Source: Streptomyces flavofungini
GTDB taxonomy: Bacteria; Actinomycetota; Actinomycetes; Streptomycetales; Streptomycetaceae
DNA: 64,000 nucleotides
Reading direction: 5' to 3'
Assembly: GCF_030388665.1 (NCBI RefSeq)
Contig: NZ_CP128846.1
Span: 3,512,001-3,576,000, forward strand
Part shown: positions 7,678-38,810 of the stretch, piece after piece
How positions within the stretch are numbered: position 1 is the stretch's first letter
Layout: the number at the start of each line of letters is the position of its first letter
Program-made: the position numbers and the translations under genes
Notes under the pieces: model-generated
Seen by the model: the letters and a program-made list of their open reading frames with translations, nothing else
What the model was told of the DNA's origin: nothing
Databases searched by the model: none

Positions 7678-7689
7678 CTACGCGCGTAG
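7678..7689. promoter_or_regulatory. Palindromic operator CTACGCGCGTAG in front of deoC
   Basis: A perfect 12-bp palindrome 13 bp before the deoC start. It lies directly against a possible -10 box TATGCT at 7691-7696, so a bound protein would block transcription. The identical palindrome precedes add, and variants precede deoA and both BMP genes. This shared distribution is the evidence for function; the binding protein is unknown. Confidence 0.75.
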
Positions 7690-7702
7690 ATATGCTCCCC
7701 TC

Positions 7703-8692
7703 GTGACTATGCCGACGACGCCATCACCCCCAAGGACAGCCGCGCCCGCAGGGCCGCCGCCACCCTTCGCTGACGTCACCACGTCGGCATCGACACTCCG
7801 CCGCTTCCTCCACGGCCTCCCGGGCGTGGACGCGGTCGGCCTGGAGGCCCGGGCCGCCGCGCTCGGAACGCGTTCGATCAAGACCTCGGCCAAGGCGTAC
7901 GCCATCGACCTGGCCATCTCCATGATCGACCTGACGACCCTGGAGGGCGCCGACACCGCGGGCAAGGTCCGCGCGCTCGGCGCGAAGGCCGTCCACCCGG
8001 ACCCGACGGACCGCACGACGCCGCGCACGGCCGCGGTCTGCGTGTACCCGGACATGGTCGCCACGGCGAAGCAGGCCGTCGCGGGCTCGGACGTGAAGGT
8101 CGCCTCGGTGGCGACGGCGTTCCCCGCGGGCCGCGCGGCCCTGGACGTGAAGCTGGCGGACGTCCGCGACGCGGTGGCCGCGGGCGCCGACGAGATCGAC
8201 ATGGTCATCGACCGGGGCGCGTTCCTCTCCGGCGACTACATGAAGGTGTACGAGGAGATCGTCGCCGTGAAGGAGGCCTCCGCGCAGGCCCGCCTGAAGG
8301 TGATCTTCGAGACCGGCGAACTCTCGACGTACGACAACATCCGCCGCGCGAGCTGGATCGGCATGCTCGCGGGCGCGGACTTCATCAAGACGTCGACCGG
8401 CAAGGTCGGGGTGAACGCGACCCCCGCGAACACCCTCCTCATGCTGGAGGCCGTCCGCGACTTCCGCGCGCAGACCGGCGTCCAGGTGGGCGTGAAGCCC
8501 GCCGGCGGCATCCGGACGTCCAAGGACGCCATCAAGTTCCTGGTCCTGGTCAACGAGACCGCGGGCGCGGACTGGCTGGACAACCACTGGTTCCGCTTCG
8601 GTGCGTCCAGCCTGCTCAACGACCTGCTGATGCAGCGCCAGAAGCTGGCCACCGGACGCTACTCCGGCCCCGACTACGTGACGGTGGACTGA
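7703..8692 (+). CDS. deoC: Deoxyribose-phosphate aldolase
   Basis: A 329-residue class I aldolase that cleaves 2-deoxyribose-5-phosphate to glyceraldehyde-3-phosphate and acetaldehyde in the cytoplasm. Family features are IDLTTLEGADT near the N-terminus, the Schiff-base lysine region DFIKTSTGK, and GVKPAGGIRTSKDA, with the second conserved lysine, further on. The N-terminal 35 residues are longer and more Pro/Ala-rich than in enterobacterial DeoC, as usual in actinobacteria. Start choice is GTG 7703 or ATG 7709. A -10-like TATGCT ends six bases before the GTG and no ribosome site is visible, so a leaderless message is likely. It begins an operon with two aldehyde dehydrogenase genes (gap 5 bp) behind a palindromic operator. 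Confidence 0.95.
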   Translation: MTMPTTPSPPRTAAPAGPPPPFADVTTSASTLRRFLHGLPGVDAVGLEARAAALGTRSIKTSAKAYAIDLAISMIDLTTLEGADTAGKVRALGAKAVHPDPTDRTTPRTAAVCVYPDMVATAKQAVAGSDVKVASVATAFPAGRAALDVKLADVRDAVAAGADEIDMVIDRGAFLSGDYMKVYEEIVAVKEASAQARLKVIFETGELSTYDNIRRASWIGMLAGADFIKTSTGKVGVNATPANTLLMLEAVRDFRAQTGVQVGVKPAGGIRTSKDAIKFLVLVNETAGADWLDNHWFRFGASSLLNDLLMQRQKLATGRYSGPDYVTVD

Positions 8693-8697
8693 GACCC

Positions 8698-10149
8698 ATG
8701 AAGAGCGAGAACGTGTCATCCGCATTCGAGTACGCCCCGGCGCCCGAGTCCCGCTCGGTCGTCGACATCGCGCCGTCGTACGGCCTGTTCATCGACGGCG
8801 AGTTCACCGAGGCGGCCGACGGCAAGGTCTTCAAGTCGGTCTCCCCGTCGACCGAGGAGGTCCTCTCCGAGGTCGCGCAGGCGGGTGAGGCCGATGTCGA
8901 CCGCGCCGTGAAGGCGGCCCGCAAGGCCTTCGAGAAGTGGTCCGCGCTGCCGGGCGCCGAGCGCGCGAAGTACCTCTTCCGCATCGCCCGCATCATCCAG
9001 GAACGCAGCCGCGAGCTGGCCGTCCTGGAGACCCTCGACAACGGCAAGCCGATCAAGGAGACCCGCGACGCGGACCTCCCGCTGGTCGCCGCGCACTTCT
9101 TCTACTACGCGGGCTGGGCCGACAAGCTCGACCACGCCGGCTACGGCGCGAACCCGCGCCCGCTCGGTGTCGCGGGCCAGGTCATCCCCTGGAACTTCCC
9201 GCTCCTGATGCTGGCGTGGAAGATCGCCCCGGCGCTCGCGACGGGCAACACGGTGGTCCTCAAGCCCGCCGAGACGACCCCCCTGTCGGCCCTGTTCTTC
9301 GCGGACATCTGCCGCCAGGCGGGCCTGCCCAAGGGCGTCGTCAACATCCTCCCCGGATACGGCGACACGGGCGCGGCCCTGACCGCGCACCCGGACGTGA
9401 ACAAGGTGGCCTTCACCGGCTCCACGGCCGTCGGCAAGCAGATCGCGCGCACGGTCGCGGGCACGGGCAAGAAGCTCACCCTGGAGCTGGGCGGCAAGGG
9501 CGCGAACATCGTCTTCGACGACGCGCCGATCGACCAGGCCGTCGAGGGCATCGTCACGGGCATCTTCTTCAACCAGGGCCAGGTCTGCTGCGCGGGCAGC
9601 CGCCTCCTGGTGCAGGAGTCGGTCCAGGACGAACTCCTCGACGCGCTCAAGCGCCGCCTGTCGACCCTCCGCCTGGGCGACCCGCTGGACAAGAACACCG
9701 ACATCGGCGCGATCAACTCCGCCGAGCAGCTGGCCCGCATCACGGCGCTCGCCGAGACGGGCGAGGCGGAAGGCGCCGAGCGCTGGTCGGCGCCCTGCGA
9801 ACTGCCCACGTCGGGCTACTGGTTCGCCCCGACCCTGTTCACGAACGTCACGCAGGCGCACACCGTGGCCCGCGACGAGATCTTCGGCCCGGTCCTGTCC
9901 GTCCTCAGCTTCCGCACCCCGGAAGAGGCCGTGGCCAAGGCCAACAACACGCAGTACGGCCTGTCGGCGGGCATCTGGACGGAGAAGGGCTCGCGCATCC
10001 TCGCGGTCGCGAACAGGCTCCGCGCCGGGGTCGTCTGGGCCAACACGTTCAACAAGTTCGACCCGACCTCGCCCTTCGGCGGCTACAAGGAGTCGGGCTT
10101 CGGCCGCGAGGGCGGCCGCCACGGCCTGGAGGCGTACCTCGATGTCTGA
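8698..10149 (+). CDS. NAD(P)-dependent aldehyde dehydrogenase
   Basis: A complete 483-residue aldehyde dehydrogenase. It has the cofactor-site sequence VIPWNFPLLMLAWKIAPAL, the FTGSTAVGKQI turn, the catalytic glutamate in TLELGGKGANIVF and the catalytic cysteine region FNQGQVCCAG. Such enzymes oxidise aldehydes to acids. Because the gene starts five bases after deoC, the most likely substrate is the acetaldehyde released by DeoC, giving acetate; this is inferred from the operon. Its last codons overlap the next gene by eight bases, so the two are probably translationally coupled. Confidence 0.93.
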   Translation: MKSENVSSAFEYAPAPESRSVVDIAPSYGLFIDGEFTEAADGKVFKSVSPSTEEVLSEVAQAGEADVDRAVKAARKAFEKWSALPGAERAKYLFRIARIIQERSRELAVLETLDNGKPIKETRDADLPLVAAHFFYYAGWADKLDHAGYGANPRPLGVAGQVIPWNFPLLMLAWKIAPALATGNTVVLKPAETTPLSALFFADICRQAGLPKGVVNILPGYGDTGAALTAHPDVNKVAFTGSTAVGKQIARTVAGTGKKLTLELGGKGANIVFDDAPIDQAVEGIVTGIFFNQGQVCCAGSRLLVQESVQDELLDALKRRLSTLRLGDPLDKNTDIGAINSAEQLARITALAETGEAEGAERWSAPCELPTSGYWFAPTLFTNVTQAHTVARDEIFGPVLSVLSFRTPEEAVAKANNTQYGLSAGIWTEKGSRILAVANRLRAGVVWANTFNKFDPTSPFGGYKESGFGREGGRHGLEAYLDV

Positions 10150-11047
10150 CAAGTCCGAGCGCTTGACTGTCTTCAAGACCTACAAGCTGTACGTGGGCGG
10201 CAAGTTCCCGCGTTCCGAGAGCGGCCGGGTGTACGAGGTGACGGACTCGAAGAACAACTGGCTGGCGAACGCTCCGCTCTCCTCCCGCAAGGACGCGCGG
10301 GACGCCGTGGTCGCGGCCCGCAAGGCGTTCGGCGGCTGGTCGACGGCGACGGCGTACCTGCGCGGCCAGATTCTGTACCGCGTGGCCGAGATGCTGGAGG
10401 GCCGCCGCGAGCAGTTCGTGCGCGAGGTCGCCGACGCGGAGGGCCTGTCGAAGTCCAAGGCGGCCGCCGTCGTGGACGCGACCATCGACCGCTGGGTCTG
10501 GTACGCGGGCTGGACGGACAAGGTCGCGCAGGTCGTGGGCGGGGCGAACCCGGTCGCGGGCCCGTTCTTCAACCTCTCCACGCCCGAGCCGACCGGTGTG
10601 GTCACCGTCGTCGCCCCCCAGGAGTCCTCGTTCCTGGGCCTGGTGTCGGTGGTGGCCCCCGCGATCGCCGCGGGCAACACGGTGGTCGTGATCGCCTCCG
10701 AGAAGTCCCCGCTGCCCGCCCTCTCCCTCGGCGAGGTCCTGGCCACGTCGGACCTGCCAGGCGGCGTCGTCAACATCCTCAGCGGCAGGACCGCTGAGCT
10801 CGCCCTCCCCCTCGCCGCCCACCAGGACGTGAACGGCCTGGACCTGGCAGGCGCGGACGCCGATCTGGCGAAGGACCTGGAGATCGCGGCGGCGGACAAC
10901 CTCAAGCGCGTCCTGCGTCCACAGGCCGTGGACACCGACGCGGACTTCACCACCACTCCCGGCACCCACCGCCTGACCACGTTCCTGGAAACCAAGACGG
11001 TCTGGCACCCCACGGGCTCCCTGGGCGCCTCGGGCTCGGCGTACTGA
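10142..11047 (+). CDS. Degenerate aldehyde-dehydrogenase-like protein lacking the catalytic half
   Basis: A 301-residue relative of the preceding dehydrogenase. The first 230 residues follow the fold of an ALDH cofactor domain (ARKAFGGWS, VVAPQESSFLGLVSVVAPAI, NTVVVIASEKSPLPAL, GVVNILSG). After that the protein diverges and stops. It has no ELGGK glutamate and no cysteine at all, so it cannot be an active dehydrogenase. The eight-base overlap with the intact enzyme suggests a partner or regulatory subunit rather than simple decay, and the reading frame is clean. The enzyme-partner idea is inference. Confidence 0.88.
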   Translation: MSDKSERLTVFKTYKLYVGGKFPRSESGRVYEVTDSKNNWLANAPLSSRKDARDAVVAARKAFGGWSTATAYLRGQILYRVAEMLEGRREQFVREVADAEGLSKSKAAAVVDATIDRWVWYAGWTDKVAQVVGGANPVAGPFFNLSTPEPTGVVTVVAPQESSFLGLVSVVAPAIAAGNTVVVIASEKSPLPALSLGEVLATSDLPGGVVNILSGRTAELALPLAAHQDVNGLDLAGADADLAKDLEIAAADNLKRVLRPQAVDTDADFTTTPGTHRLTTFLETKTVWHPTGSLGASGSAY

Positions 11048-11064
11048 GCCCGCCCCCCGTTCCC

Positions 11065-11100: not shown

Positions 11101-11110
11101 CGTTTTCGGG

Positions 11111-25076: not shown

Positions 25077-25088
25077 CTACGCGCGTAG
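25077..25088. promoter_or_regulatory. Palindromic operator CTACGCGCGTAG in front of add
   Basis: Identical to the palindrome before deoC. It sits 16 bp before the add start and in the spacer just upstream of the -10-like TAGAGT, a classic repressor position. Confidence 0.8.
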
Positions 25089-26078: not shown

Positions 26079-26483
26079 ATGAGTTCCGCGGGCGCGGGCG
26101 GTCCCCCTAACGTGGCAGTCTCCCAAGCACATTCGCCGAACCTGCTGGTCATGAGCGGGCCCGTCCGTGAGGGCGACATACCCCGCCTCGTCGCCGACCT
26201 GCGCGCCGTCGTGGTCGCGTCCGGCGCCGCCGAGGTGATCTGCGACGTGGGCGGCGTGACCACCGCCGACCTCGTGACCGTGGAGGCGGTGGCGCGGCTC
26301 GGACTGGCCGCCCGCAGGGCGGGGACGGGGCTGCGGCTGCGCGACCCGACCCCGGCCCTGTGGGCGCTGCTCCGGCTCGTCGGCCTCGCGGAGCTATGCG
26401 TCGAGGTGGAGGGGGACCCCGAAGAGCGGGAACCACCGCTGGGTGTCGAGGAAGCAGTGGAATCCGGCGACGCGGCCCGCTGA
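26079..26483 (+). CDS. STAS-domain protein
   Basis: A 134-residue protein whose core (about 20-110) follows the STAS fold: LLVMSGPVREGDIPRLVADL, then EVICDVGGVTTADLVTVEAVARL in the place of the anti-sigma-antagonist serine loop (here TTADL rather than a clear DSSG), then AGTGLRLRDPTPALWALLRLVGL. Proteins of this type can antagonise anti-sigma factors. The last 28 codons overlap, on the opposite strand, the end of the sigma factor gene (90 bp shared). The ATG at 26079 has only a distant GGGAGGAG; GTG 26110 is out of frame, so the start is moderately uncertain. Confidence 0.7.
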   Translation: MSSAGAGGPPNVAVSQAHSPNLLVMSGPVREGDIPRLVADLRAVVVASGAAEVICDVGGVTTADLVTVEAVARLGLAARRAGTGLRLRDPTPALWALLRLVGLAELCVEVEGDPEEREPPLGVEEAVESGDAAR

Positions 26484-27371: not shown

Positions 27372-27542
27372 CCCAGCCCACCCCTGTGCCTCTGCGTGCC
27401 CGTGTGTGTCCGTGTGTGCCCGTGTCGTAGCGGCTACGGAAGTCCCAGCACCTCGGAAGCTACCGCAGCCCACTGACAATGGCCTGGGGAGCGGTGAAAA
27501 CGGCAGCTCACAGGGGTTGGTTGCGGTATGGGGCGGGGCGCT

Positions 27543-28859
27543 TCAGGCGGTGCGGGCCGCCGTCACCCGCTCCACGCGCGCCACCCGGCTCCCGTACAGC
27601 GTGATCGACACGACGCCGAGGACGGCGAGGATGCCGAGGCTCACCGTGCCGCCCCAGCCGCCCGCGTGGAAGGCCATGGCGCCGAGGGTGCCGCCGACGC
27701 TGGAGCCCACGTAGTACGCGGACTGGTAGAGGGCGGAGGCCTGGGCGCGGCCCGTGGTGGCCGTGCGGCTCACCGACGAGGACGCGACCGCGTGGCCCGC
27801 GAAGAAGCCGGCCGTGATCAGGACCAGGCCGAGCAGGACCAGGCCGAGCGAGGTGGAAAGGGACAGGAGCAGGCCGCCCGCGGTGGTGCTCACGGCCAGG
27901 TACAGGGCGCCGCGCCTGCCGAGCCGCGCCACCAGCTTCCCGGCCGCCGCCGACGACACCGTACCGACGAGGTAGACGAGGAAGATCGAGCCGATGACGC
28001 CCTGCGGGAGGGAGAACGGGCCCTCGGTGAGGCGGTAGCCGATCACCGTGTAGACCGCGCCGAAGACGGTCATGAACAGCGCGCCGATCGCGTACAGGCG
28101 GCACAGGAGCGGGTTCGACAGGTGCGAACGGACCGTGCGGGCGAGGGACTTGGGGCTGAGCGTGCCCGGCGTGAAGTGGCGTGGGGCGGGCAGGAGCGCG
28201 CGGAAGGCGAGCGCGGCCGCGACCGCGAGCAGGCCGACCACGGCGAGCGCCCAGCGCCAGCCCCAGGCCTGCGCGGCCCAGCCCGTGACGATGCGGCCGC
28301 TCATGCCGCCGATGGAGTTGCCCGCGACGAACATGCCGATCGCGGCGACCAGCGCCTTGGGGCGGACCTCCTCGGCGAGGTAGGCCATCGCGGACGCCGG
28401 GAGTCCGGCGAGGGCGGCGCCCTGTACGGCGCGCAGCGCGATCAGTACGCCGACGTTCGGCGCGAACGGGACCAGCAGGCCCACGGCGACGGCCACCGTC
28501 AGCGAGACCGTCATCAGCGTGCGCCGCCCGTACCGCTCCGACAGGGCGCTCAGCGGCAGCACGAACAGGGCGAGCGCGCCGGTCGCCGCCGACACCGTCC
28601 AGCTCGCCGTGGACGCGCTCGCGCCGAGGTCGGCGGAGATCAGCGGGAGCAGGGCCTGGGTGGAGTACAGGAGCGCGAAGGTGGCGACGCCCGCCAGGAA
28701 GAGGGCGAAGCTCATGCGGCGAAAGCCGGGGCCTCCCGGTGCCATGCGCGTGTCGTGCGGGGTGGTGGACTCGGTGGACTTGAGGGGATCGGAGTCGGGG
28801 GACGACGGAGTGAGGGCGACCGCGTGGGTGGCGGACGCCCCGCTACTGGCAGGAGGCAT
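27543..28859 (-). CDS. MFS transporter (YnfM-like)
   Basis: A 438-residue transporter with twelve predicted membrane helices after a 45-residue hydrophilic N-terminal tail. The loop between helices 2 and 3 has LSERYGRRTLM, the MFS signature, and helices 4-5 have GNSIGGMSGRIVTGW. The pattern resembles YnfM-type exporters. It lies back to back with a LysR regulator gene, sharing a 62-bp promoter region that includes a dyad, so the regulator probably controls it. The substrate is unknown. Confidence 0.9.
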   Translation of the reverse strand: MPPASSGASATHAVALTPSSPDSDPLKSTESTTPHDTRMAPGGPGFRRMSFALFLAGVATFALLYSTQALLPLISADLGASASTASWTVSAATGALALFVLPLSALSERYGRRTLMTVSLTVAVAVGLLVPFAPNVGVLIALRAVQGAALAGLPASAMAYLAEEVRPKALVAAIGMFVAGNSIGGMSGRIVTGWAAQAWGWRWALAVVGLLAVAAALAFRALLPAPRHFTPGTLSPKSLARTVRSHLSNPLLCRLYAIGALFMTVFGAVYTVIGYRLTEGPFSLPQGVIGSIFLVYLVGTVSSAAAGKLVARLGRRGALYLAVSTTAGGLLLSLSTSLGLVLLGLVLITAGFFAGHAVASSSVSRTATTGRAQASALYQSAYYVGSSVGGTLGAMAFHAGGWGGTVSLGILAVLGVVSITLYGSRVARVERVTAARTA

Positions 28860-28890
28860 GCCACGAACGTACGACCACGATTCTCATGCG

Positions 28891-28903
28891 TCCAATGCAT
28901 GGA
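28891..28903. promoter_or_regulatory. Dyad TCCAATGCATGGA in the MFS-LysR divergent promoter
   Basis: An imperfect palindrome (TCCA-ATGCA-TGGA) in the 62-bp gap, with a T-N-A core typical of LysR sites. It lies just before a -10-like CATAAT (28909-28914) whose end is seven bases from the LysR ATG. Regulator binding here is inferred. Confidence 0.5.
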
Positions 28904-28921
28904 ATCGCCATAATCGTTCCT

Positions 28922-29884
28922 ATGCAGCATCAGCAGAGGTCAGGCGCTCGTCTGTCGCAGAACAGTGACACAGAGGACACAGCTCACATCGTGCGGCTGC
29001 TCGCTCCGCGGCTCGCGTACTTCGCCGGGGTGGCCCGGACGGAGCACGTCACGCGGGCCGCGCGGGAGCTTCAGGTGCCGCAGTCCACGTTGTCGCGCGC
29101 CATGGTCCGGCTCGAACAGGACCTGGGCGTCGACCTGTTCGCCCGGCACGGTCGTACGGTGTCGCTGACGCCCGCAGGACGGACCTTCCTGGCCTCCGCG
29201 GAGCGGGCGCTCGCCGAGGTGGGGCGGGCCGCCGAGTCCGTGCGGGCCGACGCGGATCCCGCCACCGGGAAGGTGGCGTTCGGGTTCCTCCACACCATGG
29301 GGTCCGAGACCGTGCCCGGGCTCATCCGGGCCTTTCGCGCGGATCATCCTCGGGTGCGGTTCAGTCTCGTGCAGAACTATGGCGAGGCCATGCTGGAGCG
29401 GCTGCGGGCCGGGGAGTTGGACCTCTGTCTCACCTCTCCCGTGCCGGACGCGCCCGGGCTCGTGGCCCGGCGCCTCGACGAGCAGCGGCTCCGCCTCGTC
29501 GTGCCCGACGACCACCGGCTCGCCTCCCGCAAGCGGGTCCGCCTCGCCGAGGCCGCCGACGAGGCCTTCGTGACCCTCGAACCCGGCTACGGTCTGCGGC
29601 GCATCACCGACGACCTGTGCGCCGAGGCCGGGTTCCGGCCGCGGATCGCCTTCGAGGGCGAGGAAGCGGAGACGCTACGGGGGTTGGTCGCCGCCGGGCT
29701 CGGCGTGGCCCTGCTGCCGCCGCCCGCCGTGGCCCGTCCCGGCGTCGTCGAACTCACCGTCACCGGCCAGCGGGCCGTCCGCGAGATCGGGGTGGCCTGG
29801 CTGGAGGGCCACCCCGACACGGCGCCGGTGGCCGCCTTCAAGAAGTTCCTGCTGGGGCGGCGGGGGCGGTTGCTCCCGGAATAG
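28922..29884 (+). CDS. LysR-family transcriptional regulator
   Basis: A 320-residue LysR-type regulator. The N-terminal helix-turn-helix has EHVTRAARELQVPQSTLSRA then VRLEQDLGVDLFARHGRTVS, and the effector domain includes KVAFGFLHTMGSETVPGLIR and GLGVALLPPPAV. Its ATG at 28922 follows a CATAAT -10-like box by seven bases and has no ribosome site, suggesting a leaderless message; an earlier in-frame start at 28886 would reach into the neighbour's promoter. It probably controls the divergent MFS gene and itself. Confidence 0.92.
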   Translation: MQHQQRSGARLSQNSDTEDTAHIVRLLAPRLAYFAGVARTEHVTRAARELQVPQSTLSRAMVRLEQDLGVDLFARHGRTVSLTPAGRTFLASAERALAEVGRAAESVRADADPATGKVAFGFLHTMGSETVPGLIRAFRADHPRVRFSLVQNYGEAMLERLRAGELDLCLTSPVPDAPGLVARRLDEQRLRLVVPDDHRLASRKRVRLAEAADEAFVTLEPGYGLRRITDDLCAEAGFRPRIAFEGEEAETLRGLVAAGLGVALLPPPAVARPGVVELTVTGQRAVREIGVAWLEGHPDTAPVAAFKKFLLGRRGRLLPE

Positions 29885-29982: not shown

Positions 29983-30000
29983 GGGTGGGACAGCCCCCGC

Positions 30001-30040
30001 CGATCGCGCTTCGCGCTCGTCCTCGATCGCCGGACGGGCT
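30001..30040 (-). repeat. Intergenic repeat family, copy 3 (partial, inverted)
   Basis: Read on the minus strand this is AGCCCGTCCGGCGATCGAGG then ACGAGCGCGAAGCGCGATCG. It is the opening of the repeat at 7466 and 11280. Only the first third is present. The GCGCGAAGCGC core forms a small hairpin and may help end deoA transcription. Confidence 0.65.
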
Positions 30041-30093
30041 TTTCCCCACCCACCCGCCCTTCTTCTCCCTCCGGGCGGGTGGGTGGGGCGGCG

Positions 30094-31371
30094 TCAGCTG
30101 ATGCGGTCCAGGATCGTGGGGCGGGGGTCGAACCGGGTTCCCGTCGGGGAGACGTCGTACGCGGAGGCCAGGGCCTCCAGGGCGTACTCGAAGCGCTCGG
30201 GGGTGTCCGTGTGCAGGGTGAGGAGGGGCTCGCCCGCCACGACGGAGTCGCCCGGCTTGGCGTGGAGCTCGACGCCCGCGCCCGCCTGGACGGGGTCCTC
30301 CTTGCGGGCCCGGCCCGCGCCCAGGCGCCAGGCCGCGACACCGATGTCGTACGCGTCGAGGCGGGTGAGGACGCCGGAGGCGGGGGCCACCACGGTGTGG
30401 GTCTCGCGGGCGACGGGCAGGGCCGCGTCCGGATCGCCGCCCTGGGCGGAGATCATCCGGCGCCAGACGTCCATCGCGGACCCGTCGGCGAGGGCCTTGG
30501 CGGGGTCGGCGTCCGGCAGCCCGGCGGCGTCGAGCATCTCGCGGGCCAGCGCGAGGGTCAGGTCGACGACGTCGGAGGGGCCGCCGCCCGCCAGGACCTC
30601 GACGGACTCGCGGACTTCGAGGGCGTTGCCCGCGGTGAGGCCGAGGGGGGTGGACATGTCGGTGAGGAGGGCGACCGTACGGACGCCGTGGTCGGTGCCG
30701 AGGCCGACCATCGTGGAGGCGAGCTCGCGGGCGTCGTCGAGGGTCTTCATGAAGGCGCCGGTGCCCACCTTCACGTCCAGGACCAGGGAACCCGTCCCCT
30801 CGGCGATCTTCTTGGACATGATGGAGGAGGCGATGAGCGGGATCGCCTCGACGGTGCCGGTCACGTCGCGGAGCGCGTAGAGCTTCTTGTCGGCGGGGGC
30901 CAGGCCGTCGCCGGCCGCGCAGATCACGGAGCCCGCGCCGTTCAGCACGTCCAGCATCTCCTCGTTGGAGAGCAACGCCCGCCAGCCGGGGATCGACTCC
31001 AGCTTGTCGAGGGTGCCGCCGGTGTGGCCGAGGCCGCGCCCGGACAGCTGCGGCACGGCCGCCCCGCAGGCCGCGACCAGCGGGGCGAGGGGGAGGGTGA
31101 TCTTGTCGCCGACGCCGCCCGTGGAGTGCTTGTCGGCGGTGGGGCGGGAGAGGGAGGAGAAGTCCATGCGCTCGCCGGAGGCGATCATCGCCGCCGTCCA
31201 GCGGGCGATCTCACGGCGGTTCATGCCGTTCAGGAGGATCGCCATGGCCAGGGCAGACATCTGCTCGTCGGCAACGGCGCCGCGCGTGTACGCGTCGATG
31301 ACCCAGTCGATCTGCTCGTCGCTCAGCTCGCCCCGGTCCCGCTTCGTACGGATGACGGAGATTACGTCCAT
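30094..31371 (-). CDS. deoA: Thymidine phosphorylase
   Basis: A 425-residue pyrimidine-nucleoside phosphorylase that splits thymidine, deoxyuridine and possibly uridine with phosphate into base and (deoxy)ribose-1-phosphate. The family signature SGRGLGHTGGTLDKLESIPG is intact, along with the phosphate loop KHSTGGVGDK and KKIAEGTGSLVLDVKVGTGAF. Length matches the family. It lies downstream of cdd but behind its own promoter: a terminator closes cdd, then a CTACGCGCATAG operator overlaps a -10-like TAGAGT. So it appears separately controlled by the same factor as the other nucleoside genes. Confidence 0.95.
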   Translation of the reverse strand: MDVISVIRTKRDRGELSDEQIDWVIDAYTRGAVADEQMSALAMAILLNGMNRREIARWTAAMIASGERMDFSSLSRPTADKHSTGGVGDKITLPLAPLVAACGAAVPQLSGRGLGHTGGTLDKLESIPGWRALLSNEEMLDVLNGAGSVICAAGDGLAPADKKLYALRDVTGTVEAIPLIASSIMSKKIAEGTGSLVLDVKVGTGAFMKTLDDARELASTMVGLGTDHGVRTVALLTDMSTPLGLTAGNALEVRESVEVLAGGGPSDVVDLTLALAREMLDAAGLPDADPAKALADGSAMDVWRRMISAQGGDPDAALPVARETHTVVAPASGVLTRLDAYDIGVAAWRLGAGRARKEDPVQAGAGVELHAKPGDSVVAGEPLLTLHTDTPERFEYALEALASAYDVSPTGTRFDPRPTILDRIS

Positions 31372-31428
31372 GGCAGAAATCCCTTCCGGCGGTGCCGGTC
31401 GTCAGTGACCGGCGTGCGTCGAGCACGA

Positions 31429-31444
31429 CTCTACGCGCATAGAG
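31429..31444. promoter_or_regulatory. Operator CTCTACGCGCATAGAG in front of deoA
   Basis: A 16-bp dyad with one mismatch; its core differs by one base from the deoC/add palindrome. On the minus strand it overlaps a -10-like TAGAGT, about 58 bp before the deoA start and just after the cdd terminator. Confidence 0.75.
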
Positions 31445-31453
31445 CGAGGATGC

Positions 31454-31488
31454 GGCAAGGCCCCCGCCAACTCGGCGGAGGCCTTGCC
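31454..31488 (-). terminator. Hairpin terminator between cdd and deoA
   Basis: GGCAAGGCC-CCCGCC pairs with GGCGG-AGGCCTTGCC around a short loop: a long, slightly bulged stem eight bases after the cdd stop on the minus strand. It separates the transporter-cdd operon from deoA. Confidence 0.85.
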
Positions 31489-31496
31489 CTGTTGTG

Positions 31497-31895
31497 TCAG
31501 TTCAGACGCTCGGGACCGAACGCGTCCGGCAGCATGTCGCCGAGGGACCGCACCCCGGACGAGGTCTGAAGCAGGAGCCCGGCGCCGCCGAACTCGTACA
31601 GGAGCTGACGGCACCGGCCGCACGGCATCAGGATGTCGCCCTTGCCGTCCACGCAGGTGAAGTGCGTGAGTCGGCCGCCGCCGGTCAACTGGAGCTGGGA
31701 GACCAGGCCGCACTCGGCGCACAGGCCGAGGCCGTATGAGGCGTTCTCGACGTTGCAGCCGGTCACCGTGCGGCCGTCGTCGACGCGGGCCGCGGCGCCG
31801 ACCGGGAAGCCCGAGTAGGGCGCGTACGCACGGGACATGGCCTCGCGCGCGGCCTCCCGCAGGTCGTCCCAGTCGACGTCCGCGGCGGCGGTCAC
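31497..31895 (-). CDS. cdd: Cytidine deaminase
   Basis: A 132-residue zinc enzyme that deaminates cytidine and deoxycytidine to uridine and deoxyuridine. The active site reads CAECGL (catalytic Glu) and MPCGRCRQ (two zinc cysteines), and NVENASYGLGLCAE fixes substrate. The size matches the small homotetrameric Cdd family. It begins 25 bp after the second permease gene and is the last gene of the transporter operon, so imported cytidine would be processed at once. A terminator follows. Confidence 0.95.
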   Translation of the reverse strand: MTAAADVDWDDLREAAREAMSRAYAPYSGFPVGAAARVDDGRTVTGCNVENASYGLGLCAECGLVSQLQLTGGGRLTHFTCVDGKGDILMPCGRCRQLLYEFGGAGLLLQTSSGVRSLGDMLPDAFGPERLN

Positions 31896-31920
31896 TGTCC
31901 CCGCTCCTCGGCAGAGTGCG

Positions 31921-33183
31921 TCATTTCCCTTGTCCCTTCCGGTACGGCATCCCGTCCGCCTTCGGCATCCGCAGCCGCTGGGCGGAGAGCGAGAGCACCA
32001 GCAGCGTGACGACGTACGGCGTGGCGGTGACGACCTGGTTCGGCACCTCGTCGGTGAGGCCGTACCAGAGGAACATCAGCGCCGACGCCGCCGCGGTGAC
32101 CACCGCGGGGACGTAGCGCTTGCGCCAGATCAGGTAGGCCGCGCCGATGAGAAGAAGGATGGCGATCAGGAGCAGCAGGGCGTGGACATTCGTGCCGCCG
32201 CCCCGCAGCTTCAGGCTGTCGGTGTAACCGAACAGACCGGCGCCCAGCGCGAGTCCGCCCGGCATCCAGTTGCCGAAGATCATGGCGGCGAGGCCGATGT
32301 AGCCGCGCTGGCCGGTCTGGCCCTCCAGGTAGATGTTGGAGGCGACCAGGGACAGGAACGCGCCGCCGAGGCCCGCGAGGCCGCCGGAGACGATGACGGC
32401 CACGTACTTGTACTTGTAGACGTTGACGCCGAGCGACTCCGCGGCGATCGGGTTCTCGCCGCAGGAGCGCAGGCGCAGGCCGAACGCGGTGCGCCAGAGG
32501 ATGAACCAGCTCAGCGGCACCATCGCGACGGCGATGAGGGTCAGCGGCGACACGTCGGTGATCAGACCGCCGAGCAGGCCCGCGATGTCGGACACCAGGA
32601 ACCAGTGTTTCTGGTTGAGGTCGTGCAGCCAGTCCGAGAGCCCCGGCACCGAGAACTTGCCGAGGGATTCCACGCCGGGCGACTGCTTCGACGTACCGCC
32701 CTCCACGCCCTCGAAGGCGAAGGTGGAGAGGTAGCGGGTGGTGCCGAGGGCGAGGATGTTCAGGGCCACACCGGAGACGATGTGGTTGACGTTGAAGGTG
32801 ACCGTGACGATCGCGTGCAGCAGGCCGCCGATCGCGCCGCCGAGCACGCCGAAGACGATGCCGACCCACGGGCCCCACTGGTAGCCCGCCCAGGCGCCGA
32901 ACCAGGTGCCGAGGATCAGCATGCCCTCGAGGCCGATGTTGACGACGCCCGCGCGCTCGGCCCACAGGCCGCCGAGGCCCGCGAGGCCGATCGGCACGGC
33001 CAGGCGCAGGGCGCCGGACATCTGGCCGGTGGAGGTGATGCCGTGGGCGTCGGTGATGAGCCGGACCACGGAGGTGAGGACCAGCACGCCCGCGATGATC
33101 AGCAGCAGGACGGGGAGCGAGATGCGGCGGCGGCCCGGCTTGGGGGTCGCGGGCGCGGCCTTGGTGACGGTTGCCGTGCTCAT
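31921..33183 (-). CDS. Nucleoside-type ABC transporter permease (second permease)
   Basis: A 420-residue integral membrane protein of the BPD_transp_2 class, with ten or so helices. The conserved family segment LRLAVPIGLAGLGGLWAERA with GVVNIGLEGMLILGTWFGAW occurs at about 85-125, and LRSCGENPIAAESLGVNVYK marks the cytoplasmic coupling loop. With the preceding permease it forms the channel of a BMP-type importer for nucleosides. Its start overlaps the first permease's stop (ATGA). Confidence 0.93.
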   Translation of the reverse strand: MSTATVTKAAPATPKPGRRRISLPVLLLIIAGVLVLTSVVRLITDAHGITSTGQMSGALRLAVPIGLAGLGGLWAERAGVVNIGLEGMLILGTWFGAWAGYQWGPWVGIVFGVLGGAIGGLLHAIVTVTFNVNHIVSGVALNILALGTTRYLSTFAFEGVEGGTSKQSPGVESLGKFSVPGLSDWLHDLNQKHWFLVSDIAGLLGGLITDVSPLTLIAVAMVPLSWFILWRTAFGLRLRSCGENPIAAESLGVNVYKYKYVAVIVSGGLAGLGGAFLSLVASNIYLEGQTGQRGYIGLAAMIFGNWMPGGLALGAGLFGYTDSLKLRGGGTNVHALLLLIAILLLIGAAYLIWRKRYVPAVVTAAASALMFLWYGLTDEVPNQVVTATPYVVTLLVLSLSAQRLRMPKADGMPYRKGQGK

Positions 33184-34343
33184 CGGGCAGCCACCTCCTT
33201 CACGGAGTCGTTGTTGCCGTTGTTGCCCTTGTTGCCGTTGTCGCCACCGGTGGCTCGGGCCGCGGCGGCCAGTTCCTCACCGACGCGCTGCTGCTGGCGG
33301 CGCAGGCCCCAGCGGCGCACCGCCTCGTAGGAGACGACGACCGCGATCACGATCAGGCCCTGCATGATCACCGCGATCTCCTTGTCGTACGCCACCGGCT
33401 GGGCGTAGTCGAGAGCGGGCGACGCCTTGTCGAGGAAGGCGATGAGCAGCGCGGCGAACGCGATGCCGACCGGGTTGTTGCGGCCGAGCAGGGCGATGGT
33501 GATGCCGGTGAAGCCGAGGCCGGTGGGGAAGCTCAGGCTGTAGGTGTGGACGTCGCCGAGCAGGATCGGCATGCCCGCGAGGCCCGCGACCGCGCCCGAG
33601 ATCAGCATGGCGGTGAGCACCATGCGCTTGGCGTTCACACCGGAGGCGGCGGCCGCCGACTGCGAGGCGCCGGTGGCGCGCAGGTCGAAGCCGAAGCGGG
33701 TGCGGTTGAGGACGAGCCAGTACAGGACGCCGCCGAGGGCCGCGATGATCACGAAGCCGTAGATCTCGCCGGAGGCGCCCATGGAGATGCCGGGGAACCA
33801 GCCGGACCTGTGCATGACGCCGGTGGTCTGGTTGTTGCCGACCGGGACGCCGAAGTTCTCGGTGAGGGTGAGGTAGCCGATGACGCTCGTCGCGATGGCG
33901 TTGAGCATGATCGTGGCGACCACCTCGCTGACGCCCCGGGTGGTCTTCAGGACGCCCGCGATGCCCGCCCAGAACGCGCCGGTCAGCATCGCCACCAGCA
34001 TGAGCAGCGGGATCTGCAGCCCGGACGGCAGCGAGACATGGGCGCCGACGACAGCCGTGACCATCGCGGCGAGCCGGTACTGGCCGTCCACACCGATGTT
34101 GAACAGGTTCATGCGGAAGCCGATGGCCACCGCGAGGGCCGCCAGGTAGTACATCCCGGCCTGGTTGATGATCAGGACCTGGACGTCGGAGAACCCGGCC
34201 TGCTCGAACATCAGGCTGTACGGCTCGATCGGGTTCTTGCCCGAGGCGAGCAGCACGACCGACGTCAGGGCGACGGCCGCGATGAGCGCGATGACCGGTC
34301 CGGCCACCGCGAGGAGCACCCGCTCCTTGTCGAACTTCTTCAT
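33180..34343 (-). CDS. Nucleoside-type ABC transporter permease (first permease)
   Basis: A 387-residue integral membrane protein, the partner of the other permease. The N-terminus (MKKFDKERVLLAVAGPVIAL) is short and basic, and MYYLAALAVAIGFRMNLFNI and FNIGVDGQYRLAAM match the BPD_transp_2 family. The coupling loop has DLRATGASQSAAAASGVNAK. The tail carries an Asn/Gly/Lys-rich repeat (NKGNNGNN) from simple-sequence DNA near 33205-33245. It overlaps both the ATPase gene upstream and the second permease downstream by four bases. Confidence 0.93.
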   Translation of the reverse strand: MKKFDKERVLLAVAGPVIALIAAVALTSVVLLASGKNPIEPYSLMFEQAGFSDVQVLIINQAGMYYLAALAVAIGFRMNLFNIGVDGQYRLAAMVTAVVGAHVSLPSGLQIPLLMLVAMLTGAFWAGIAGVLKTTRGVSEVVATIMLNAIATSVIGYLTLTENFGVPVGNNQTTGVMHRSGWFPGISMGASGEIYGFVIIAALGGVLYWLVLNRTRFGFDLRATGASQSAAAASGVNAKRMVLTAMLISGAVAGLAGMPILLGDVHTYSLSFPTGLGFTGITIALLGRNNPVGIAFAALLIAFLDKASPALDYAQPVAYDKEIAVIMQGLIVIAVVVSYEAVRRWGLRRQQQRVGEELAAAARATGGDNGNKGNNGNNDSVKEVAAR

Positions 34344-36016
34344 CGGGCCTCGTCCTCCGGGGCGGCTTCTTCGGTTGCGTCGGCGGGGGCGCCGGCCACG
34401 GCGGCGCCGGAGTCGGCCTCCTCGGCCTCCTCGGCCTCGCCGTCCTCGCCGTCCTCGACGTGCTCCAGGTGTCCTGAGGCCGCGCCCGTCATCGCCGAGC
34501 CCAGCTCCTCCGGGGTGACCGTCGCCGGGTCGGCGTCCGCGACGAGCCGGCCCCGGTAGATCACGCGGAGGGTGTCGGACAGGCCGATCAGCTCGTCCAG
34601 GTCGGCGGAGATCAGGAGCACCGCGAGGCCCTCGCGGCGCGCCTCGCGGATCTGGTCCCAGATCTGCGCCTGCGCGCCGACGTCCACACCGCGGGTGGGG
34701 TGGGCGGCGATCAGGAAGCGCGGCTTGTGGCTCATCTCGCGGCCGACGATCAGCTTCTGCTGGTTGCCGCCGGACAGGGAGGCCGCGGTGACGTCGATGC
34801 CGGGCGTACGGACGTCGTACTCCTCGACGATGCGCCGGGTGTCGGCCTGCGCGCCCTTGGTGTCGAGCCAGAAGCCGCGGCTGTTGGGCTTCTCGGTGAC
34901 GTGGCCGAGGATGCGGTTCTCCCAGAGCGGGGCTTCCAGGAGCAGGCCGTGGCGGTGGCGGTCCTCGGGGATGTAGCCGACGCCGCCCTCGCGCCGCCTG
35001 CGGGTCGCCCAGTCGGTGATGTCCTCGCCGGCCATCCTGATGACGCCGGAGTCGGCGTGCTTGAGGCCGATGAGGGCGTCGATGAGTTCGGTCTGGCCGT
35101 TGCCCTCCACGCCCGCGAGGCCGAGCACTTCGCCCTCGTGGATGGTGAAGGAGATGTCGTCGAGGAGGGCGCGTCCCGACTCACCCTCGGCGAGCAGCTT
35201 CAGGCCCTCGACCGCGATCATGGGCCGGTCGGTGACCGTGGACTCCGCGGTCTCCGGCGTCGGCAGCTCGCTGCCCACCATCAGCTCGGCGAGCTGGCGC
35301 GGGGTGGTCTCGGACGGGATCGCCGTGCCCACCGTCGTACCGCGCCGGATGACGGTGATGTCGTCGGCGACGGAGAGGACCTCGCCGAGCTTGTGCGAGA
35401 TGAAGATGACGGACAGGCCCTCGGACTTGAGCTCGCGCAGGTTGTCGAAGAGCGCGTCGACCTCCTGCGGCACGAGCACGGCCGTGGGCTCGTCGAGGAT
35501 CAGCGTGGTGGCGCCGCGGTAGAGGACCTTGAGGATCTCCACGCGCTGGCGGTCGGCGACGCCGAGGTCCTCGACGTAGGCGTCGGGGCGCACGCCGAGG
35601 CCGTAGCGGTCGGAGATCTCGGTGATCTTACGGCGGGCCCCGGCACCGATGCCGTACAGCTTCTCGCTGCCGAGCACGATGTTCTCCAGGACGGTCAGCT
35701 GGTCGGCCAGCATGAAGTGCTGGTGGACCATGCCGATGCCGCGGCTGATGGCGTCCGCGGGGCTGTTGAAGGCGACCTCGACGCCGTCGACGGCGATGGT
35801 GCCCTCGTCCGGCTTCTGCATGCCGTAGAGGATCTTCATCAGCGTCGACTTGCCGGCGCCGTTCTCGCCGACGAGGGCGTGGACGGTGCCCTTGCGGACG
35901 CTGAGGTGGATGTCGTGGTTGGCCACGACGCCCGGGAACCGCTTGGTGATGCCGACGAGTTCGACGGCGCAGGCGGGCGCCCGGTCGGTGGGCGGAGGGC
36001 TGGTGGACGCGTCGAT
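34340..36016 (-). CDS. Nucleoside-type ABC transporter ATPase, apparently starting at ATC
   Basis: A tandem ATPase of two ABC modules (about 558 residues), as in sugar/nucleoside importers. Module 1 has Walker A VGENGAGKST and Walker B TLILDEPTAV; module 2 has signature LSGGNQQK, with AGVEGNGQTEL as its degenerate P-loop. The coding frame extends upstream of the first canonical start (GTG 35926) through VELVGITKRFPG, which the family needs as its first beta-strand. The only start that restores the normal N-terminus, at 36016, reads ATC, with AGGAG eight bases upstream; GTG 36023 is out of frame. Either AUC initiation is used, or the G of an ATG was changed by mutation or sequencing error. Its stop overlaps the first permease. 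Confidence 0.92.
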   Translation of the reverse strand: MDASTSPPPTDRAPACAVELVGITKRFPGVVANHDIHLSVRKGTVHALVGENGAGKSTLMKILYGMQKPDEGTIAVDGVEVAFNSPADAISRGIGMVHQHFMLADQLTVLENIVLGSEKLYGIGAGARRKITEISDRYGLGVRPDAYVEDLGVADRQRVEILKVLYRGATTLILDEPTAVLVPQEVDALFDNLRELKSEGLSVIFISHKLGEVLSVADDITVIRRGTTVGTAIPSETTPRQLAELMVGSELPTPETAESTVTDRPMIAVEGLKLLAEGESGRALLDDISFTIHEGEVLGLAGVEGNGQTELIDALIGLKHADSGVIRMAGEDITDWATRRRREGGVGYIPEDRHRHGLLLEAPLWENRILGHVTEKPNSRGFWLDTKGAQADTRRIVEEYDVRTPGIDVTAASLSGGNQQKLIVGREMSHKPRFLIAAHPTRGVDVGAQAQIWDQIREARREGLAVLLISADLDELIGLSDTLRVIYRGRLVADADPATVTPEELGSAMTGAASGHLEHVEDGEDGEAEEAEEADSGAAVAGAPADATEEAAPEDEAR

Positions 36017-36263
36017 GGCGCACTCTCCTGGGGAAACTTAAGGAAAGGGGCCGGACCCGCACACGCGGTGTGTGCCCCTGCTTCACGCCTCAGTCGCCAC
36101 CGGCCGGCCGCCCGGGCTCACGGAGCACGACGCCTACTGGCTGTCGTGTGCCGTCAACTGGGGTGCCGAGCACGGTGGTTGAGGCCCTGGCCGTGCGAAC
36201 GGGGCGCGAGGAGGCTGTTGCGCCAGTGTCCTCACACCCCGTTCCGCCGCCGTAACGGCGCCA

Positions 36264-37316
36264 TTACAGCGCCGTCTTGACCTTGATCTTGCCGCTGGTG
36301 ATGCCCTGCTCGGCCTTCTTCAGGGAGGCCTGCAGGTCCTTCATCTTGGTGAACTCGGGGTTGGAGTCGGCGAGGCCGACACCGCCCGACTTGAGGTCCG
36401 CGCGCACGACGCCGCCCTCGGCCTTGTCATCCTTCACCGACTTCACCAGGTTGTACACCGCTCCGGCGACGTCCTTGGTGGCCGAGGTGAGGATGTACTT
36501 CTTGTACTTGGCGAGCGCCTTCTGCTTGTACTGGTCGGAGTCGACACCGATCGCCCAGACCTTCTTGGCGGCGGCGGCCTCGATGACGCCCTGACCGGAG
36601 AGACCGGCGGCGTGGTAGACCACGTCGGCGTCGCCCTCGATCTGGCCGCTGGCCGCCTCCTTGCCCTTGTCCGGGCTGGAGAAGCCGCCGTCCTCGGCCT
36701 TCTCGGTGAGGAACTGGCGCTTGACCTTGACCGACTTGTCGGTGTCCTGGACGCCCTGGACGAAGCCCGCCTCGAACTTGCGGATCAGCGGGTTGTCGAC
36801 GCCGCCGATGAAGCCGACGGTCTTGGTCTTGGTGGCCTTCGCGGCGGCGACACCGGCCAGGTACGAGGACTGCTCCTCGTTGAAGACCAGGTCGGCGACG
36901 TTCTTCGCCTTGATGGTGGCGTCGTCGACGATGCCGAAGGTGACGTCCGGGTTCTTGGCCGCGACCTCCTTGATGGCGGGCGCGTAGGCGTAGCCGACAC
37001 CGATGACCGGGTTGTAGCCCTGCTTGGCCAGCTCGGTGAGGCGCTGGACCTTGTCGGCGTCGGACTCGCCGTCGGTGGGCTCGACGGCCTTCTTGCCGAC
37101 CTTGAGCTCCTTGGAGGCGCGGTCCATGCCCGCGGTGGCGGCGTCGTTGAACGACTGGTCGCCGGCGCCGCCGATGTCGTACGCGATCGCGACACCCTTG
37201 CTCTTGCCGTCGTCGTTCTTGGCGGCGTCGCTGGAGGTACCGCCGCAGGCGGTGGCGGAAACGGCGAGAGCGGCGGTCGCGGCAGACGCGAGCGCTATTC
37301 GGGACACCCGGCGCAT
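36264..37316 (-). CDS. BMP-family nucleoside-binding lipoprotein 1
   Basis: A 350-residue solute-binding lipoprotein of the BMP (Med/PnrA-like) family that feeds nucleosides to the ABC importer. Lipobox ATAC lies near residue 24. Family patterns are IAYDIGGAGDQSFNDAATAG, GFIGGVDNPLIRKFEAGFVQ and VVYHAAGLSGQGVIEAA. It is highly similar to the second BMP protein upstream, so the pair arose by duplication. It lies 247 bp from the ATPase gene; a small hairpin (36248-36260) is in between. An operator variant TAACGCGCGTAG precedes it by about 118 bp. Confidence 0.95.
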   Translation of the reverse strand: MRRVSRIALASAATAALAVSATACGGTSSDAAKNDDGKSKGVAIAYDIGGAGDQSFNDAATAGMDRASKELKVGKKAVEPTDGESDADKVQRLTELAKQGYNPVIGVGYAYAPAIKEVAAKNPDVTFGIVDDATIKAKNVADLVFNEEQSSYLAGVAAAKATKTKTVGFIGGVDNPLIRKFEAGFVQGVQDTDKSVKVKRQFLTEKAEDGGFSSPDKGKEAASGQIEGDADVVYHAAGLSGQGVIEAAAAKKVWAIGVDSDQYKQKALAKYKKYILTSATKDVAGAVYNLVKSVKDDKAEGGVVRADLKSGGVGLADSNPEFTKMKDLQASLKKAEQGITSGKIKVKTAL

Positions 37317-37433
37317 AGAGACGAACTCCTTATGTACAAGGACGTGAGTACGGACGCGGCTTGCGGACCTGGGGACGCACGACGAGCCACGTACGTGCAG
37401 TGCGCCTCACCCGGCGCTGATTTCGCCGCAGCG

Positions 37434-37445
37434 TAACGCGCGTAG
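37434..37445. promoter_or_regulatory. Operator variant TAACGCGCGTAG in front of BMP gene 1
   Basis: One half matches the deoC/add palindrome exactly; the other has TAAC instead of CTAC. It is identical to the site before BMP gene 2. The adjacent bases GGCGCTGATTTCG(C/G)CGCA are also shared, so the promoter was duplicated along with the gene. Confidence 0.7.
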
Positions 37446-37572
37446 ACCTGACATAAGAACCCTTCTGTCCGGTCCGTTATCGAGCTGTGGCCACCAGGCG
37501 TCGGGCGGGTGACGGCCGGGTGCGGCGGCCACCGGAGGCCTGATCTGCGGCGGATTCATTGGGGCCCAACGG

Positions 37573-37622
37573 GTTATACGTACGACCCGAGGACGGGGGT
37601 CCGACGCCGTTATACGTACGAC
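37573..37622. repeat. Direct repeat GTTATACGTACGAC, two copies
   Basis: The 14-mer occurs at 37573-37586 and 37609-37622, 36 bp apart start to start, between the two BMP genes. Each copy contains the palindrome TACGTA. It could be a pair of protein-binding sites for the promoter of BMP gene 1. Confidence 0.7.
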
Positions 37623-37648
37623 GTCGGACACACCACACAAAACCCGGA

Positions 37649-38740
37649 TCAAGGCCGGGTCTTGACCGTCACCTTGCCCTCGACGATGTCCTTCCTGGCC
37701 TTCTCGACCGCGGCCACGACGTCCTTCATGTCCCGGTACGCCGGGTTGGCGTCGGAGAAGCCGACCCGGCCCGACTTGAGGTCGTAGCGCTGGGTGCCGG
37801 TCATCGGCTTGCCGTCGACGACGGACTTGGCGAGGTCGTAGACGGCACCGCCGACGTCCTTCAGGGCGGAGCCGAGGATGTACTTCTTGTACTTGGCGAG
37901 GGCCTTCTGCTTGTACTGGTCGGAGTCGACGCCGATCGCCCACTTCTTCTTCGCTCCGGCCTCCTGGATCACGCCCTGCCCGGAGAGCCCGGCCGCGTGG
38001 TAGAGCACGTCGGCCCCGGCTTCGAGCTGTCCGCTCGCCGCGTCCTGCCCCTTGTCGGGGCTGGCGAATCCGCCTTCCTCGGGCTTCTCCGTCAGATACC
38101 GCTTCTCGATTTCGATCTTCGGGTCGACCGACTTCACGCCCTGCACGAAACCGGCCTCGAATTTGTGGATGATCGGGATGTCCACGCCCCCGATGAATCC
38201 GACGTGTTTGACCTTGGTCGCCTTCGCCGCGGCGACTCCGGCGAGATACGAGCCCTGTTCCTCGTGGAATACGAGATCGGCCACGTTGTCGGCCTTGACG
38301 GTGTCGTCGTCGACGATGCCGAAAGTGATCTTCGGATACTTCTTCGCGACTTCCTGTACGGCGGGCGCGTACACGAATCCGACGCCGATCACCGGGTTGT
38401 AGCCCTGCCGGGCCAGGGTCTCGATGCGCTGCGTCTTGTCGGCGCTGGACTCGCCGTCGCCCGGCTCCATGTCGATGCCGCCGATCTTCAGGTCCTTGCG
38501 GGCCCGCTGGTACCCGCTGTACGCGGCGTCGTTGAAGGACTGGTCACCCCGGCCGCCGATGTCGTACGCGAGACCGATGCCCTTGCCGGAGTACTTCCCG
38601 TCCCCCTTCTTCCCTCCCTCGTCGTCCTTGGCGGCATCACTGCTGGTGCCGCCGCACGCGGAGGCCACGAGGGCGAACGTCGCCACCGCCACGGCCACTT
38701 GGGAAATCCTCGACACTCGACGTCGACGCACAGGACGCAC
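37649..38740 (-). CDS. BMP-family nucleoside-binding lipoprotein 2
   Basis: A 363-residue solute-binding lipoprotein closely related to its downstream neighbour. Lipobox ASAC lies near residue 28 (LVASACGGTSSDAAKD). It has LAYDIGGRGDQSFNDAAYSG, GFIGGVDIPIIHKFEAGFVQ and VLYHAAGLSGQGVIQEA. The differences from paralogue 1 are concentrated in the N-terminal third, which may alter ligand preference. It is the first gene of the importer cluster and has its own operator variant. Whether the whole cluster is one transcript is not certain because 330 bp separate the two genes. Confidence 0.95.
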   Translation of the reverse strand: MRPVRRRRVSRISQVAVAVATFALVASACGGTSSDAAKDDEGGKKGDGKYSGKGIGLAYDIGGRGDQSFNDAAYSGYQRARKDLKIGGIDMEPGDGESSADKTQRIETLARQGYNPVIGVGFVYAPAVQEVAKKYPKITFGIVDDDTVKADNVADLVFHEEQGSYLAGVAAAKATKVKHVGFIGGVDIPIIHKFEAGFVQGVKSVDPKIEIEKRYLTEKPEEGGFASPDKGQDAASGQLEAGADVLYHAAGLSGQGVIQEAGAKKKWAIGVDSDQYKQKALAKYKKYILGSALKDVGGAVYDLAKSVVDGKPMTGTQRYDLKSGRVGFSDANPAYRDMKDVVAAVEKARKDIVEGKVTVKTRP

Positions 38741-38798
38741 CCCTTACGTTTCGAACGTTCCCCAAAGCACCGGTGACGGCGCTGATTTCGGCGCACAT

Positions 38799-38810
38799 TA
38801 ACGCGCGTAG
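38799..38810. promoter_or_regulatory. Operator variant TAACGCGCGTAG in front of BMP gene 2
   Basis: Identical to the site before BMP gene 1 and sharing its flank GGCGCTGATTTCG. It lies about 59 bp before the gene start. With the sites at 7678, 25077, 31429 and 37434, this makes five related sites, all next to nucleoside genes. Confidence 0.7.

Follow-up and report, generated by a model that had tools for sequence, protein, structure and literature searches.

What ties together the nucleoside uptake and breakdown genes that lie scattered over a 64,000-nucleotide stretch of Streptomyces flavofungini DNA (NZ_CP128846.1, positions 3,512,001–3,576,000; the whole of this stretch is hereafter called the window)? 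The question is raised by a 12-letter palindrome, CTACGCGCGTAG, found before deoC and add and, in variant form, before deoA and two genes for nucleoside-binding lipoproteins, bmp1 and bmp2, sites that an initial annotation took as the mark of a single dedicated regulon. With a probability of roughly three in four, CTACGCGCGTAG and its near variants constitute the operator of one Streptomycetaceae DNA-binding regulator, most likely a dimeric repressor. The shared site is indeed conserved family-wide before orthologous genes, although the gene set first proposed was too narrow: this is a family-wide operator regulon for nucleoside and purine scavenging and handling, larger than the initial annotation supposed.

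The palindrome in the window and the genome

Both exact copies in the window occur where they had been annotated, at 7678–7689 (forward strand) before deoC and at 25077–25088 (reverse strand) before add. The 9.36-Mb genome holds one more (G000:C1:3510320–3510331), located 1.7 kb left of the window and 25 bases upstream of the pnp start codon, so that all three copies are found at nucleoside genes. A first-order estimate made from the window gives a chance expectation of about 0.0027 copies per 64 kb and about 0.40 per genome, compared with the two and three observed. A one-mismatch site, CTATGCGCGTAG, does precede deoA on the reverse strand, at 31431–31442 rather than at 31429 as had been reported, and the two BMP sites (37434–37445 and 38799–38810) are present at their annotated positions, reading TAACGCGCGTAG on the forward strand and CTACGCGCGTTA on the gene (reverse) strand, two positions off the palindrome. 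Matches with up to two mismatches number seven in the window, against a shuffle mean of 4.43, and 18 of 100 shuffles reach seven; since this is not above chance, the exact copies and not the loose matches are the signal in the window. The remaining two two-mismatch matches lie at 19854 and 60340.

Conservation across the family

Judged from sequence, the palindrome is real and not a product of chance, and it is conservation that carries the case. All 41 genomes of the genus carry the exact motif in three to six copies each, for a total of 157 copies against 27 of the reversed pattern, a control that is about four times likelier by chance than the motif itself and that applies to the genus, class, family and one-mismatch counts. 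Among 158 genomes of the class, all 14 belonging to the genus hold two to five exact copies, while only 7 of the 144 others, from outside the family, hold any. These occurrences looked incidental: one locus taken from each of the seven lay in repetitive, coding or unannotated sequence, and two further sites in G114 gave no match to nucleoside proteins. Across the family the exact motif was found in 60 of 61 genomes and 16 of 17 genera. The exceptional genome (G205) has no exact copy, but carries CTACGCGCGTTA before a bmp gene and TAACGCGCGTAG, here a two-mismatch site, before pnp.

A gene-by-gene view was obtained from 80 named loci around deoA, from Streptomyces, Kitasatospora, Actinacidiphila, Yinghuangia and others. 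These hold 105 copies of the motif in 73 loci, whereas for 119 other palindromes built from these half-site letters the median is 0 copies and the highest count 20. This comparison was relied on instead of a motif information profile, which was built from motif-containing windows and owes its core value to that construction. Per-gene counts cover genes for which the start and the 300 preceding bases were present. The exact site precedes add in 57 of 59 relatives, and the BMP variant CTACGCGCGTTA is almost invariant, standing before 88 of 89 bmp genes. For the ABC ATPase gene the exact site was found in 46 of 77 relatives and CTACGCGTGTAG in 21 more, giving a site in 67 of 77 and none in 10; in the genome studied here, the 350 bases preceding this gene contain no site with two or fewer mismatches. 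For deoA, a one-mismatch site occurs in 28 of 79 relatives (26 of these being CTATGCGCGTAG) and a two-mismatch site in three. Outside the family the picture is different: in a set of 20 deoA loci (10.9–20 kb), the 18 from other families have alignable deoA, add, ATPase, bmp, pnp and deoC genes with no site at two or fewer mismatches. That one site recurs at orthologs in many genomes, and does so beyond the controls, is what would be expected of a single-operator regulon.

A wider set of target genes

The initial annotation described the targets as exactly the genes of nucleoside uptake and catabolism, with no site before unrelated genes. The latter holds in the window, leaving aside the two-mismatch matches at 19854 and 60340, but genome-wide the regulon is wider, extending to purine biosynthesis, nucleobase permeases, secreted nucleotidases, a carbon-nitrogen hydrolase and a GH25 muramidase. 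Exact sites were found upstream of purN-purH in six genomes of genus g85 and one of g86, upstream of purS-purQ in G155 and L089, upstream of a HAD hydrolase gene in L054 and L091, and over codons 3–7 of a second adenosine deaminase gene, add2, in five genomes (L046, L047, L048, L088 and L090). Five genomes (L053, L115, L116, L120 and L122) have an exact site, and L053 two, upstream of a secreted protein family for which no confident Pfam or NCBIfam match was obtained, possibly an enzyme of nucleic-acid scavenging.

One-mismatch sites were compared among four genomes (57 sites; not counted were those at deoA and, in G201, 3 of the 13 outside the cluster), gene identities being checked by tblastn with one member of each family scanned. 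Orthologous promoters with sites were those of purS-purQ, the carbon-nitrogen hydrolase and an NCS2-type permease, each in 4/4 genomes, and of a secreted 5'-nucleotidase in 3/4. The nearest NCBIfam model for the hydrolase is N-carbamoylputrescine amidase, under its cut-off. In a ten-genome scan with CTACGCGCGTTR, sites were found at the 5'-nucleotidase gene in seven, at a CpdB-like secreted nucleotidase gene in four, at an NCS1-type permease gene divergent from ftsY in three, and at purS in G115. In the genome of the window, 7 of 18 one-mismatch sites are located at deoA, purS, NCS2, NCS1, 5'-nucleotidase, carbon-nitrogen hydrolase and GH25 genes.

The muramidase was recognized through a site, at most one mismatch from consensus, located between a MarR gene (G000:C1:3076603) and the GH25 gene. 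The site is present in 13 of 14 MarR loci that include a GH25 gene and in none of 10 that do not (24 of 28 loci were counted; L259–L262, with best matches of 34–47% and no site, were dropped before the count). Since its presence tracks the GH25 gene, the site belongs to the muramidase and not to MarR, which was rejected as a regulator on this account.

Several other sites were not counted as targets. These are a fifth orthologous group, conserved beside rplL and probably coding; sites, confined to one or two genomes apiece, that overlap the initial codons of two HNH-like secreted proteins (L294 and L298) or lie upstream of genes for an acid phosphatase (L278) and a secreted protein without assignment (L284); and sites in L051, L052, L055, L126 and L127. 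In a single genome, G201, a one-mismatch site lies over the first codons of a secreted ribonuclease (L277:1507–1956, PF00545), as in add2, and was also left uncounted.

Promoter anatomy

With promoter boxes identified by eye, the sites fall in the core promoter, mostly between a position covering the −35 box and one directly adjoining the −10 box. In the deoC promoter the whole palindrome occupies the 18-base spacer between TGTACA (7667–7672) and TATGCT (7691–7696), and the GTG start codon follows 6 bases past this −10-like box, so that the transcript is probably leaderless. The pnp palindrome covers the −35 region and is followed by TACCCT, with GTG 7 bases on. At add, the palindrome is followed by TTAGAGT, lying 4 bases upstream of TAGAGT, and the ATG comes 6 bases after the −10-like box, while at deoA the final TAG of CTATGCGCGTAG itself opens TAGAGT. 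The purS palindrome is found 14 bases upstream of TAGTCT or TACGCT. In the bmp promoters a −10-like hexamer, TAnnnT, begins with the last TA of CTACGCGCGTTA (TACGCT for bmp1, TAATGT for bmp2), which explains why this variant, though asymmetric, does not vary.

The position of the site relative to the promoter boxes thus varies among genes but is constant for each gene, a pattern that suits a repressor obstructing RNA polymerase. Overlap with the promoter had led the initial annotation to propose repression; the core-promoter placement is as expected on that proposal, and it is from site position that we, too, infer repression. A repressor bound in the core promoter, from the −35 to the −10 box, would exclude RNA polymerase, and would release in response to nucleosides, bases or nucleotides as indicators of supply; a phosphopentose is also possible as the signal. 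The regulon under such control would comprise an uptake part (BMP/ABC, NCS1- and NCS2-type permeases) together with secreted nucleotidases, a catabolic part (pnp-phosphomutase, deoC, deoA and add) together with the carbon-nitrogen hydrolase and the GH25 muramidase, and a purine synthesis part consisting of purS-purQ and, in two genera, purN-purH.

A number of observations weigh against this model. No site at two or fewer mismatches precedes deoA in 48 of 79 named relatives. Matches with up to one mismatch show no excess over the reversed control, either in this genome (21 against 22) or in three others (25/19, 14/14 and 17/19), and an isolated one-mismatch match is therefore meaningless without conservation. 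The add2 sites inside the first codons and the purN-purH sites further upstream are not explained by a simple promoter block. Finally, the exact and one-mismatch sites that were inspected yielded no regulator gene preceded by its own site, an inspection that was partial (one-mismatch sites in four genomes) and did not include a search for LacI candidates or PurR-type proteins.

A separate observation concerns the bmp leaders, in which an inverted repeat directly follows the site and −10-like box (37380–37433 and 38745–38798, reverse strand). It usually reads AGCGCC-N6-GGCGCT, with GGCGCT found within 80 bases in 77 of 84 distinct AGCGCC leaders and loops of 5–33 bases, and some paralogous bmp leaders retain the stem with different letters. 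Mean folding energy was slightly lower in the leaders than in upstream control stretches (−14.7 against −12.9), and an Rfam search of positions 30000–39500 of the window gave no match for this region.

The nucleoside locus

The first 955 positions of the window (1–955, forward strand) hold the 3' part of the phosphomutase gene downstream of pnp, the pnp operon and its exact site lying to the left. On the same strand, deoC (deoxyribose-phosphate aldolase, 7703–8692; Pfam DeoC, TIGR00126 above cut-off) is followed by an aldehyde dehydrogenase gene (8698–10149) and a second aldehyde-dehydrogenase-like gene (10142–11047), both matching Pfam Aldedh. All remaining nucleoside genes are on the reverse strand: add (adenosine deaminase, 23855–25060; Pfam A_deaminase, NF006847 above cut-off), deoA (pyrimidine nucleoside phosphorylase, 30094–31371; Pfam Glycos_transf_3 and PYNP_C), a cdd-like cytidine deaminase gene (31497–31895; Pfam dCMP_cyt_deam_1) between deoA and the permease genes, two ABC permease genes of a nucleoside transporter (31921–33183 and 33180–34343; Pfam BPD_transp_2), the ABC ATPase gene with its two ABC domains (34340–35926; Pfam ABC_tran in two stretches), and bmp1 and bmp2 (36264–37316 and 37649–38740; Pfam Bmp). 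Between add and deoA (26394–29884) are located genes for an ECF-type sigma factor with an NTF2-like tail, an MFS protein and a LysR protein, which are kept in 49, 64 and 64, respectively, of the 65 loci holding both add and deoA.

Alternative explanations and the search for the regulator

Site placement bears directly on the alternative that no repressor is involved, the palindrome being instead the binding site of an activator or an element of promoters served by a special sigma factor. One repressor is seldom common to purine synthesis and nucleoside breakdown, and the purN-purH sites, about 40 bases upstream of a likely −10 box, occupy an activator-like place. Most sites, however, overlap the −35 and −10 boxes or the spacer between them, SigA-like boxes accompany them, and their position varies from gene to gene, making this alternative unlikely. 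A similarly low probability is assigned to a division of the set among several regulators whose sites resemble each other, such that the nucleoside locus might answer to one and purS-purQ, GH25 or the permeases to others. In its favor, the outlying sites are partly gene-specific variants (CTACGCGCGTTG, CTACGGGCGTAG, CTACGCGCGGAG and CTACGCACGTAG), and a local TetR pair in G201 has its own repeated boxes of the form CTAC-N4-GTAG; but purN-purH carries the exact consensus, which in G155 also replaces the variant at purS.

In keeping with the initial annotation, no site-carrying regulator was found within the window. With CG at its center, the palindrome would be a suitable operator for a LacI-type protein. 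A DeoR-, LacI- or GntR-family gene with the site in its own promoter had been suggested as the one to look for, and a DeoR-family gene (L016:6316–7305) does lie 3 kb from pnp and beside lpd, encoding a DeoR-type sensor domain. That this protein is the regulator, sensing a phosphopentose from nucleoside breakdown as E. coli DeoR responds to deoxyribose-5-phosphate, is a doubtful proposition. Orthologs of 81–100% identity occur in all 61 family genomes, near pnp wherever both were fetched, but no site at two or fewer mismatches is present upstream of deoR in 29 regions, 21 of them distinct. The lack is not decisive, since a regulator need not carry its own site. Orthologs of 58–70% identity with a nearly identical recognition helix are found in f15 and f24, two families that lack the motif, so that the motif's distribution does not follow the DeoR-family protein. 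The deoR promoters (L016:7306–7400 and orthologs) contain a strongly conserved element of a different kind, GAACAACTTCTGTTATTCGGCGCAAACTGCTGAAAGCAG-like, which is possibly the autoregulatory site of this gene.

The LysR gene between add and deoA (28886–29884) is a highly improbable source of the regulator. Apart from its retention there, it recalls PunR of E. coli, a LysR-type activator of one purine transporter gene that is likewise encoded beside an MFS gene; yet the PunR operator is a 23-bp AT-rich palindrome (TsttwTCAAwAwwwTTGaaGGCA; PMC8376909), whereas the element described here is a GC-rich palindrome of 12 bp. Furthermore, the gene faces the MFS gene and has no nearby site with two or fewer mismatches, and a locus without LysR in this place (L383) keeps two exact sites.

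Other candidates were also set aside. An SbtR-like TetR gene adjoining deoR has no site at two or fewer mismatches in its preceding 332 bases in this genome, and an 84-residue XRE protein encoded beside the HAD gene is conserved (53–75%) far outside the family, with no preceding site in 14 loci. For a GntR gene with CTACGCGCGTAA upstream in G191, the best match in 27 other genomes was 48% (in G201) and the rest were weaker. A TetR gene in L276 (G201) forms a local pair with a divergent oxygenase-like gene; three CTAC-N4-GTAG boxes lie between the two (L276:1503–1575), according to which a TetR-type protein may be able to read a palindrome of such shape. Inspection by eye of the neighbors of deoA in the 20 loci revealed no recurring regulator, no family scan having been made.

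Chance or coding-sequence bias, which the absence of an excess of loose matches in the window or by count in four genomes and the probably coding group beside rplL might recommend, is hardly credible in the face of family-wide conservation, the palindrome controls and the tracking of GH25.

Relation to known systems and biological significance

Two systems offer close parallels. In E. coli, DeoR and CytR repress the deo operon, nucleoside uptake and deaminases via a palindromic operator, and the regulon described here is alike in its presumed repression of nucleoside uptake and catabolism through a palindrome; the operator sequence differs, and neither protein is known to control purine synthesis, secreted nucleotidases or a muramidase. 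In Bacillus subtilis, PurR is one repressor for purine synthesis and for purine or nucleoside uptake, a joining of synthesis with uptake that is also found here, but its operator sequence is different, and the catabolic genes deoC, deoA, add and pnp are not known to belong to its regulon. The Streptomycetaceae regulon thus resembles DeoR/CytR and Bacillus PurR combined.

Further systems for comparison are described in the literature. NupR of Bacillus thuringiensis, a local regulator also tied to nucleoside transport genes, recognizes a 20-bp imperfect GntR-type site (e.g., AGTGGTAAGACCTATTAAAA), and the motif here is unlike the nup sites listed in that source (PMC9430930). XdhR of Streptomyces coelicolor is a purine-salvage repressor answering ppGpp, described for the xdh operon and actinorhodin genes, and no link to the palindrome appears in the part of the report at hand (PMC6627660). 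The promoter of SCO4914 (deoC) is among the WblC-bound, repressed promoters of a chromatin immunoprecipitation study (PMC7157823), and the SCO4914 protein is lower in an argR mutant (PMC3293853); neither effect accounts for the palindrome. A literature search that included the motif letters and left supplements aside found neither an operator of such sequence nor a Streptomyces regulon of this kind.

Dead cells serve Streptomyces as food, and the mycelium itself is recycled. We give even odds to the broader idea that the sites report an undescribed global Streptomycetaceae regulator, a scavenging switch that would read the nucleotide state of the mycelium and join the breakdown of external nucleic acids, uptake, catabolism and part of de novo purine synthesis. 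The external part of such a switch would include secreted nucleotidases, a cell-wall-lysing muramidase and perhaps secreted nucleases. Guanosine nucleotides have been linked to Streptomyces differentiation and antibiotic production (PMC6627660). A family-wide operator that couples purine synthesis and a muramidase to the scavenging of nucleosides and bases and to nucleoside breakdown would offer a direct handle on this link between nucleotides, differentiation and antibiotics, and the palindrome provides an exact bait with which its regulator may be caught.

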